Below, one piece after another: positions 2,347-6,083 of a stretch of 35,375 nucleotides of DNA (positions are counted from its first letter, which is position 1; the number at the start of each line of letters is the position of its first letter). The position numbers were made by a program, and so were the translations under genes. The notes beneath the pieces were generated by a model. That model did not search any database, was not told where the DNA came from, and saw nothing but the letters and a program-made list of their open reading frames with translations. Source of the DNA: Candidatus Hydrogenedentota bacterium (GTDB lineage: Bacteria > Hydrogenedentota > Hydrogenedentia > Hydrogenedentales > CAITNO01); the NCBI GenBank assembly GCA_903822375.1, contig CAIJOU010000393.1:1-35375 (forward strand), read 5' to 3'.

Positions 2347-4611
2347 TCAGCGCACAAAGAACACGCGGTCGACGAACAGGTTGTCGACCTCGGCCGGATT
2401 GTTCATGGGCGCCACCCAGATGTACATGCCGTCGTTGAGTTGATGTGTCCCAAGGTCAATCACGGCGTACTTGTCCTTCGTTTCCTCTATCGTCGACACC
2501 CGCTGGGCAACCGGGACCTTTGCCTTTTCATCGTACAGCCCGAGCATGCACGCATTGCCCTTTTGCACCCTGGCATCGCACCGGAGCACCACATAACAGT
2601 GAACGGGGCCCAACGCGGCAAAGTCCGCTGAAACGGCGTACTGAACGGCCCACTGCGTGTGGTTGGCGGGCATGCGGGCCGCCTTGCCGTCGGATGCCGC
2701 GGGGTCGTCGGCAATCTGGGACCAGTTGCCCTGGCCGGCCAGGCGAAACTCGTTGTCCTGAATATCCACCCACTGGTCTTCGGTCAGGTTCTTGCACTGC
2801 TCCGGCGGCGGGGCCTGCGCCCGGAATCTTGCGCGCAGGTCTGATTCGAGTTCCTTGAACGGACGGCCCTCGGCGTATTGTCCAACGTTGAAACTGTTGC
2901 AGGTCTTGATGAATTCCTCGCATGCCGCAACGGGGTCGGATGGCCCCGAGAACGGTTGGTTGCGCAGACGCGCGGACCGTTTCAACTCCGTATAGCGGTT
3001 CAGCCAGGCATAATCAAGCGGCAGCCGGGCCCGCCGGACCCGCGCACTCAGGGCAGGGTCGCCCGCGACGGCCTTTTCCGCCTGGGCAAACAACGCCACA
3101 GCTTCGTTGAGGTCGCCCAGTTCCAGCCACGCGGAGGTGTCCGCCGCGTAGCAGTGCATGGCGGCGCCTGAACGCGAGACCGCGTCGTGCATGCGGTCGA
3201 TGTAACGGCGCAACGGCCATGCAGCGGGGCCGTAGTAGCCCGAGAGAAACTCATCGATAAGGGCGTTGGCGTCGCGGGAGGGCTCCCACATGAGATGGGC
3301 CAGCAGCCACGCGCGCAATTCGACGAAGTCGCCGCAGGACGAGCCCGCGTCGCCCTGCTCGAAAAGGCCGGCCGCCTTGTTGGCCACAAAGCACCGGATG
3401 TTGGGCGCAAGCACCTGAAGGTTGGGATGGGGCAGCAGGTATTGCGCGAAATTGGTCACGTAGTCCCAGATGTACAACTGGCCCGAGATGGAACTCCACG
3501 TTTCGATATCGCGCTTGAAATCGGCGTTGGCGGGCCCTGTGGCCAGCGGTTCGGGAAAGGTGCATTCGATGGAGCACAGACGGACGATGACGTTTTCGCG
3601 GGGCCGCGTGATTCCCGGGGCCTTGCGGGTGTACTGGTAGGCCAGCGTCTCCACGAGAACGTCGGGGAACTCCTTTTGAATCCGTTCGGCCACGCTGTTC
3701 ACAAAGCGCAGCAACAGGCCGGAAGGCGCACCCTCCTCCTTTTCAACGGCGGCGCAGGCGGGGCACTGGCAGTTGCCGGCGCAGTCATTCTGCGCGATGG
3801 AAATGATTCCGGCCCCGGGGTCTTTCCGGATCCATTCGAGGGCGTTCTTGACCAGTTCATCCTGCACGGCGGGATTGGTCAGGCACAACTGCGCGCCTTC
3901 TGAAACCCGCTTCCCGTCAATCTCGCTGTACCATTCCGGATGCTCCTTGAAATACTTAGCGGGGGGGAGCAACTGGTAGAACGTGTGGCACCAGCCGAGG
4001 ATGCTGTAATGACCGCCCTGTTCGGGCGGGATGCGATCAAAATGGCCGTTGCACTTGCTGCGCGAGGCGAATTGACCGTCGAATGCGTCCCGGTAGAAAG
4101 CCTCGCGGTAAAGGAGCTTCGGCGTGTACACCTTCTCGATTCGCGGAATCTCCAGCGTCGGCTTTGATGGAATCGTGCTTTCCGTGGACGACCACCAGCG
4201 GCAACCCACCACGTCTTCCAGAAAGGTGTAGACCGCATAGAGCGTCCCGCGGGGCCGGCCGCCGGACAGCAACAGGACGTCGCCGTCGGTCTTGATCACA
4301 ATGCCGTCATGCTTGAGTGTCGCCAAATCCAACTGCGGCAGGACGACGTGCACCCGCGGGCTTTGCCCCACGACAATCAGTTTGCCTACGGTGGGTGCGG
4401 CACGCTCCTCCTGCAACGGCAGTGTTGCGCCCGTCACCTGCTTCAGAAAGGCCTGCAACTCGGTCGCCGCAGTACGTTCCGCCGGAATCGCCCCGTCGGC
4501 CACCACAATGGTGTACTCCGATACGCCTTCGCGCGTCAGGAGCAACGCGTCCGCCCTGCATGAAATAAGGAACAGGGAAACGATGGCGAGAACCGCCGCA
4601 ATAATACGCAT
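2347..4611 (-). CDS. DUF4838 domain-containing lipoprotein (alpha-glucuronidase-like N-terminal region)
   Basis: 754-aa ORF, AGGAGG RBS, signal peptide with lipobox-like LISC; GCRWWSSTESTIPS and SIAQNDCAGNCQCPAC blocks typical of DUF4838 proteins. Confidence 0.8.
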   Translation of the reverse strand: MRIIAAVLAIVSLFLISCRADALLLTREGVSEYTIVVADGAIPAERTAATELQAFLKQVTGATLPLQEERAAPTVGKLIVVGQSPRVHVVLPQLDLATLKHDGIVIKTDGDVLLLSGGRPRGTLYAVYTFLEDVVGCRWWSSTESTIPSKPTLEIPRIEKVYTPKLLYREAFYRDAFDGQFASRSKCNGHFDRIPPEQGGHYSILGWCHTFYQLLPPAKYFKEHPEWYSEIDGKRVSEGAQLCLTNPAVQDELVKNALEWIRKDPGAGIISIAQNDCAGNCQCPACAAVEKEEGAPSGLLLRFVNSVAERIQKEFPDVLVETLAYQYTRKAPGITRPRENVIVRLCSIECTFPEPLATGPANADFKRDIETWSSISGQLYIWDYVTNFAQYLLPHPNLQVLAPNIRCFVANKAAGLFEQGDAGSSCGDFVELRAWLLAHLMWEPSRDANALIDEFLSGYYGPAAWPLRRYIDRMHDAVSRSGAAMHCYAADTSAWLELGDLNEAVALFAQAEKAVAGDPALSARVRRARLPLDYAWLNRYTELKRSARLRNQPFSGPSDPVAACEEFIKTCNSFNVGQYAEGRPFKELESDLRARFRAQAPPPEQCKNLTEDQWVDIQDNEFRLAGQGNWSQIADDPAASDGKAARMPANHTQWAVQYAVSADFAALGPVHCYVVLRCDARVQKGNACMLGLYDEKAKVPVAQRVSTIEETKDKYAVIDLGTHQLNDGMYIWVAPMNNPAEVDNLFVDRVFFVR

Positions 4612-5532: not shown

Positions 5533-5580
5533 GGCGAAAGTACTCCTTACTTAACAACGTCTGCAAACCCGCCCCTGTTC

Positions 5581-5891
5581 CGAATGGCACTGACTTGGGA
5601 CGAAATGCCGTTGTTTCGCACTTTCAGCGCTTTTATGTTCTTTCGGTTCCGGCTTCCCAGGGCGTTGCTCCGGGCTGTCTTGTTAAGCGCCTTCGGCGCG
5701 CAGAATGAAGCGACCACTGACGCCCGGAAGGCCCACTGTCCTCGGGCGGAATGTTCAGAGTTCCGGTCCTCCGGCCCGGAGGGCCAAAACATGACAGCCC
5801 GGGGCAACGCCCCGGGTAATGGCGATACCCAATCCCCCCACCCGCCCTGAAAAGGCGAAACAAGCCTGTTTCCTTGCGCCAGTGCCATTCG
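5581..5891. mobile_element. putative non-autonomous MITE-like element
   Basis: Perfect 12-bp terminal inverted repeats CGAATGGCACTG (5581-5592) / CAGTGCCATTCG (5880-5891). Similarity extends inward: TTGTTTCGCACTTTCAGCGC on the left versus TTGTTTCGCCTTTTCAGGGC on the reverse complement of the right end. Flanked by direct repeats CGCCCCTGTTCC (5570-5581 and 5890-5901). No transposase ORF. Confidence 0.65.
5768..5816. repeat. GC-rich palindrome cluster inside the MITE-like element
   Basis: CCTCCGG-C-CCGGAGG (5768-5782) and CCCGGGGC-AAC-GCCCCGGG (5798-5816), both perfect. Confidence 0.8.
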
Positions 5892-6083
5892 CCCCTGTTC
5901 CAAAGTCCTCAATGGATATACCATGCCAGGCTGTCAAACAGGGAATCACGACCGGCGGCATAGCCCGTGCTTTAGGATTGTTATGAATTTTGCGGATCGG
6001 ATCTTATTGCGAAAAGCCGGGCGGGTAGTTTACCGTAGCGTCCAGTGCCATTGCCGTTGAAACAAGAAAACCGGAGGTTTTTC

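Follow-up and report, generated by a model that had tools for sequence, protein, structure and literature searches.

The IS4 subgroup of insertion sequences (ISs) has been described as having ends that read -AATR and target site duplications (TSDs) of 10-13 bp (PMC2266710). Since 2010, Acido-Lenti-1 has been listed as a small RNA to which no function has been assigned (Weinberg et al. 2010, PMC2864571). In the stretch of DNA analyzed here, which is 35,375 bp long and is called the window, features of both are found in a 309-bp non-coding segment at positions 5582-5890, which has IS4-type ends and contains no transposase gene. We consider it highly probable that this segment, to which no strand is assigned, is a non-autonomous cut-and-paste MITE that is moved by an IS4-subgroup transposase and that holds paired modules between its IS4 ends.

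An earlier note on this DNA had described the ends as 12-bp inverted repeats with direct repeats at the edges. CGAATGGCACTG is indeed located at positions 5581-5592, with its exact reverse complement at 5880-5891, and both edges of the element carry CGCCCCTGTTCC. The bases and the presence of a duplication stand, but the proposed lengths of 12 bp for the terminal inverted repeat (TIR) and 9 bp for the TSD do not. Because related intact ISs begin with GAATGG, the TIR is 11 bp long and the TSD is the 11-bp GCCCCTGTTCC. In this frame, the left TIR GAATGGCACTG is placed at 5582-5592 on the plus strand and the right TIR at 5880-5890 on the minus strand (reading CAGTGCCATTC on the plus strand), and the two copies of the TSD are placed at 5571-5581 and 5891-5901, both on the plus strand. 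At the left end, 22 of the first 25 bases are identical to a truncated IS end on contig C791 of the same genome, while the right end agrees with the IS consensus in the first 11-13 bases only. The whole window was scanned for perfect 11-bp inverted repeats located 100-600 bp apart, with perfect direct repeats of 9 bp or more on their outer sides, and the single match was the element at 5582-5890. A weaker combination of 8-bp inverted and 8-bp direct repeats occurred once in 200 shuffled windows. A single DNA strand of the element folds back on itself over nearly its whole length, as an imperfect hairpin with an energy of -81.5 kcal/mol (z = -5.6) that was matched by no shuffle. The observation that the interior holds no plausible gene was also correct, as only chance ORFs overlap the 309-bp segment.

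An IS with the same termini, which the earlier note had proposed to look for in the host genome, is present on contig C2. The contig starts at AGAATGGCACTAACTTAAGG, and CTTAGTGCCATTCG follows a 482-aa transposase that NCBIfam places in the IS4 family (216 bits against a cut-off of 115) and that also matches DDE_Tnp_1 in Pfam. Its D-75-D-114-E residues and exact Y(2)R(3)E(6)K motif (YRRRWAVELYFRDIK) agree with the pattern D(60-110)D(100-150)E plus Y(2)R(3)E(6)K of the IS4 subgroup. The GAATG ends likewise agree with the NAATR ends of the subgroup, and the TSDs of 10-11 bp fall within its range of 10-13 bp, these lengths being taken from seven relatives, with the left flank on C2 cut off by the contig start. 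Related transposases are encoded by two MAGs of the Hydrogenedentota and a third labelled Pseudomonadota (60% identity), by Nostoc and its relatives (about 40%), and by a Verrucomicrobiales MAG (35%), and the elements examined around them have GAATGGCACT-type ends. The Hydrogenedentota MAGs, as the closest named relatives of the transposase, make this the probable phylum of the window. Full IS4-family elements with such termini and exact 10-11-bp TSDs are found in the Nostocales, in the Verrucomicrobiales MAG, and in a genome from the family of the window. All seven of the related ISs with exact TSDs are in the GAATGG frame, which is adjoined by 11-bp TSDs in four cases (CATAAAGATAC, CGGACTTACCC, GGTTCTGGGCC, and ATACCTGTCCC) and by 10-bp TSDs in three (GGGTTGAGCC, GGTCGAAGTC, and CATTATAACC). 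The MITE thus has TIRs in common with C2, C791, and these relatives, and its exact 11-bp TSD compares with 10-11 bp in the relatives of its partner. From the common ends and the TSD length, the 482-aa protein on C2 is the best candidate for the enzyme that moves the 309-bp element.

On C2 (L022/L023), an apparent antisense accessory ORF separates the transposase from the left IS end. Behind the same end on C791 (L018, near 3930-4170) lies a remnant that resembles this ORF by eye and is fused to the neighbouring frame. The Hydrogenedentota IS at L137 has GGGACAGTATA to the left of its left end (about 185-200) and TATACTGTCCC to the right of its right end (about 2061-2077), and these flanks are inverted rather than direct, which suggests an unusual insertion or assembly.

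Many of the left flanks across the MITE family read GGGACGCTTCC or are close to it, and ISs in relatives from the family and order of the window adjoin ATACCTGTCCC, TAGTCTGTCCC, and TATACTGTCCC. Taken together with GCCCCTGTTCC, these flanks have in common the form of an 11-mer that ends with CC and sometimes starts with GG, which may reflect a target preference. IS231, which also belongs to the IS4 family, prefers GGG(N)5CCC. A preference of this kind would explain insertion beside REP-like sequence near RAYT genes. We considered GGGACGCTTCC as a part of the element itself and rejected this, as it is missing at the window copy, and is placed on both sides of the related locus L108 in the direct orientation expected of a TSD. 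The left flanks of several copies in one genome, G001 (L104, L106, L107, L109, L112, and L113), also have a stretch further upstream in common, approximately TGACGGAATTCAGGGGGAAATGGCGACGCTT, which suggests that these copies were inserted into another repeat or were amplified along with it.

Eleven bases of the right end of the element recur as CCAGTGCCATT at positions 6042-6052, just upstream of the response-regulator/cyclase gene, where neither a module nor a second end accompanies them. The earlier note took this sequence for a possible partial copy of the terminus, and it is present as described. Allowing at most three mismatches, the 16-base end has 48 matches genome-wide, compared with 45 for a reversed control, and since it is no commoner than the control, the solo end may be indistinguishable from chance.

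The genome from which the window derives is a draft of 967 contigs with a completeness of 83%, in which multi-copy elements break the contigs. A 332-bp query gave 18 matches in this genome. The best of these besides the window itself were located on C380 (82% identity over query positions 11-261), C954 (81% over 79-283), and C861 (89% over 14-105), all of which are incomplete and have no recognisable right end. When the query is cut back to GAATGG...CCATTC, the copy on C380 aligns from position 1 of 309 at 82% identity, and two alignments in one genome of the same genus also start at base 1, which places the left boundary of the copies at the TIR. Apart from the window copy, an intact right boundary is found only for a shorter form, in two single-module relatives with both ends, namely L108, which is 217 bp long and has flanks GCGACGCTTCC and GGGACGCTTCG that match at 9 of 11 positions, and L117, which is 200 bp long and has no clear TSD. 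The copies on C380 and C954 repeat the unequal module pair of the window and its spacer, which indicates that the compound multiplied as a unit. Two genomes from the same genus contain 32 and 35 related matches, and of 68 genomes from the order, only those belonging to this genus gave matches at E <= 1e-18; no element copies matched in phage or plasmid records. The MITE reading of the earlier note is supported by the multiple copies, by their common left boundary, and by the IS with the same termini in the genome. The note had also proposed to look for copies with different flanks; the window copy is the only one in which both ends, and the TSD, are perfect. No empty site was found in relatives, where the orthologs of the neighbouring genes, one for the cyclase (G002:C971, 82% identity) and one for the DUF72-like gene (G001:C19, 80%), have unrelated upstream DNA and were uninformative on this point.

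The inverted similarity that had been noted inside the termini (TTGTTTCGC...) represents an inverted pair of three-hairpin modules, and the GC-rich palindromes reported alongside it can be refined to Acido-Lenti-1 modules. Module A is located at 5612-5705 on the plus strand (67.8 bits with the family profile) and module B, which is inverted, at 5767-5862 on the minus strand (51.3 bits); the two face each other and are non-identical. The profile built from the family describes a 94-nt module with the hairpins GCNCTTTCAGNGC, CCCGGGGC-GTT-GCCCCGGG, and GCGCCTTCGGCGC, the second and third of which correspond to the Rfam family Acido-Lenti-1 (RF01687), catalogued as an sRNA. The matches to RF01687 at 5656-5700 in module A (26.3 bits) and at 5772-5816 in module B (31.5 bits) do not reach the curated cut-off of 37, which is passed by ten other copies in the same genome. 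Among 75 distinct copies, 88-100% of the cells at the hairpin positions contain standard or G-T pairs, with double changes at the third pair of hairpin 1 (C-G in 33, G-C in 15, and A-T in 13) and at the second pair of hairpin 3 (C-G in 53 and G-C in 19). Acido-Lenti-1 was identified in 24 of 40 relatives, distributed over many families of the order. At least 20 matches are present in several of these genomes, often in close inverted pairs (for example, G007:C108 and G004:C236), a pattern that resembles an interspersed repeat more than an sRNA encoded at one locus.

Within the genus, the modules are found singly, as convergent pairs, and as divergent pairs, and the modules in the window are homologous to lone modules elsewhere in the genome. 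An IS4-type end (at most 2 mismatches in 13) is present in the flanks of 13 modules, 28-32 nt outside the module, a frequency that is biased upward by the choice of loci, made partly by likeness to the element; this bias affects the constant spacing less. A shuffled flank reaches such an end with a probability of 0.0008. Most modules do not have IS4-type ends, which suggests that the three-hairpin module is probably a wider and older repeat that was captured between IS4 ends to give the MITE.

The modules that lack IS4-type ends, and their occurrence singly or in convergent and divergent pairs in the fashion of REPINs, would also be consistent with a different mobile unit, in which a RAYT (Y1) transposase would move the hairpin module on its own as single-stranded DNA and the IS4-like ends would be incidental. 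A RAYT-like Y1 transposase gene is located on the minus strand of C2 (L023, 1524-2228), directly beside the right end of the IS4 element; it reaches 67 bits for REP_Tyr_transpos, where the cut-off is 80, and it is bounded by GGGACAGACTACGAATT-type repeats, as judged by eye, and not by the three-hairpin module. However, RAYT/Y1 transposition leaves no TSD, whereas the ends of the window copy are of the DDE type and adjoin an exact 11-bp TSD. Furthermore, the distance between IS4 end and module is constant in the 13 copies, and the boundaries of the copies fall at the IS end rather than at the edge of the module. Movement of the element in the manner of a REPIN is therefore quite improbable.

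It is less probable still that a regulatory or sRNA locus is resident here, in which case the segment would represent an Acido-Lenti-1 RNA and the terminal repeats would be a coincidence. Although Rfam classifies Acido-Lenti-1 as an sRNA, the hairpins covary, and the element sits between divergent genes, the covariation is equally consistent with DNA hairpins, the DNA found at this place beside orthologs of the neighbouring genes is unrelated elsewhere in the genus, and the segment recurs elsewhere in the genome. The combination of TIR and TSD is also far beyond chance, and neither a sigma-70 promoter nor a terminator-like site was found, which is a weak test in this phylum. An internally deleted IS that has lost its own transposase gene, with the module-like palindromes being secondary, would account for the likeness of the left end to C791, but is just as implausible, as past about 25 bp the element has no resemblance to the IS on C2 or C791 and its modules are clearly homologous to the lone modules.

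According to the preferred reading of a non-autonomous MITE, an IS4-family (subgroup IS4) transposase would bind the GAATGGCACT ends, cut out the 309-bp unit, and insert it at a staggered 11-bp target, thereby duplicating GCCCCTGTTCC. The cut-and-paste mechanism is carried over from studied members of the IS4 family, and the mobility of the element is likewise deduced from its sequence features. The non-coding interior, in which two REP-like modules of three hairpins each (Acido-Lenti-1 type) form an inverted pair, would have been brought between the IS4 ends rather than being an original part of an IS, and the module pair and the ends would then have multiplied as a unit within the genus.

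These results name an IS4-subgroup transposase as the probable driver of the MITE family and connect an Rfam "sRNA" that had been an orphan with mobile DNA. They suggest that some of the Acido-Lenti-1 "RNA" copies are mobile DNA. More tentatively, and with somewhat less than even confidence, we propose that Acido-Lenti-1, at least in this order, is a REP-like mobile DNA module that spreads both alone and as inverted pairs in IS4-family MITEs, with its hairpins being kept as DNA. This provides a testable alternative where gene-adjoining matches to Acido-Lenti-1 are taken as regulatory RNAs, for example at the proteases of Tannerella (PMC13298647). In a literature search that covered few subscription papers, no description was found of IS4-family MITEs from this phylum or of Acido-Lenti-1 as a mobile repeat. 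The MITE family is apparently undescribed; as a type of element, the MITE is ordinary.

Similar to the IS4-family MITEs and mobile insertion cassettes, such as MIC231 of IS231 (cited in PMC2266710), the element is non-autonomous, has IS4-family ends and a target duplication of about one helix turn, and would depend on a transposase in trans. It differs from the MIC231-type cassettes in that its ends are the GAATGGCACT ends of subgroup IS4 rather than the CAT... ends of IS231, and in that it carries paired hairpin modules rather than passenger genes. With the IS4 subgroup (PMC2266710) it shares the NAATR ends and a TSD within 10-13 bp, and its partner transposase has the YREK motif; however, the element contains no transposase and has not kept the WTW motif at end positions 14-16. 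Both modules in the window have the two-hairpin pattern of the Acido-Lenti-1 RNA (RF01687; Weinberg et al. 2010, PMC2864571), but they fall below the curated cut-off, are adjoined by a constant third hairpin, and form an inverted pair inside a transposable unit. Similar to REPINs and BIMEs with RAYT (PMC3116915, PMC2817692), the modules are short, palindromic, arranged in inverted pairs, and scattered between genes, while the element differs from these in its 94-nt three-hairpin module and in having DDE-transposon ends and a TSD.
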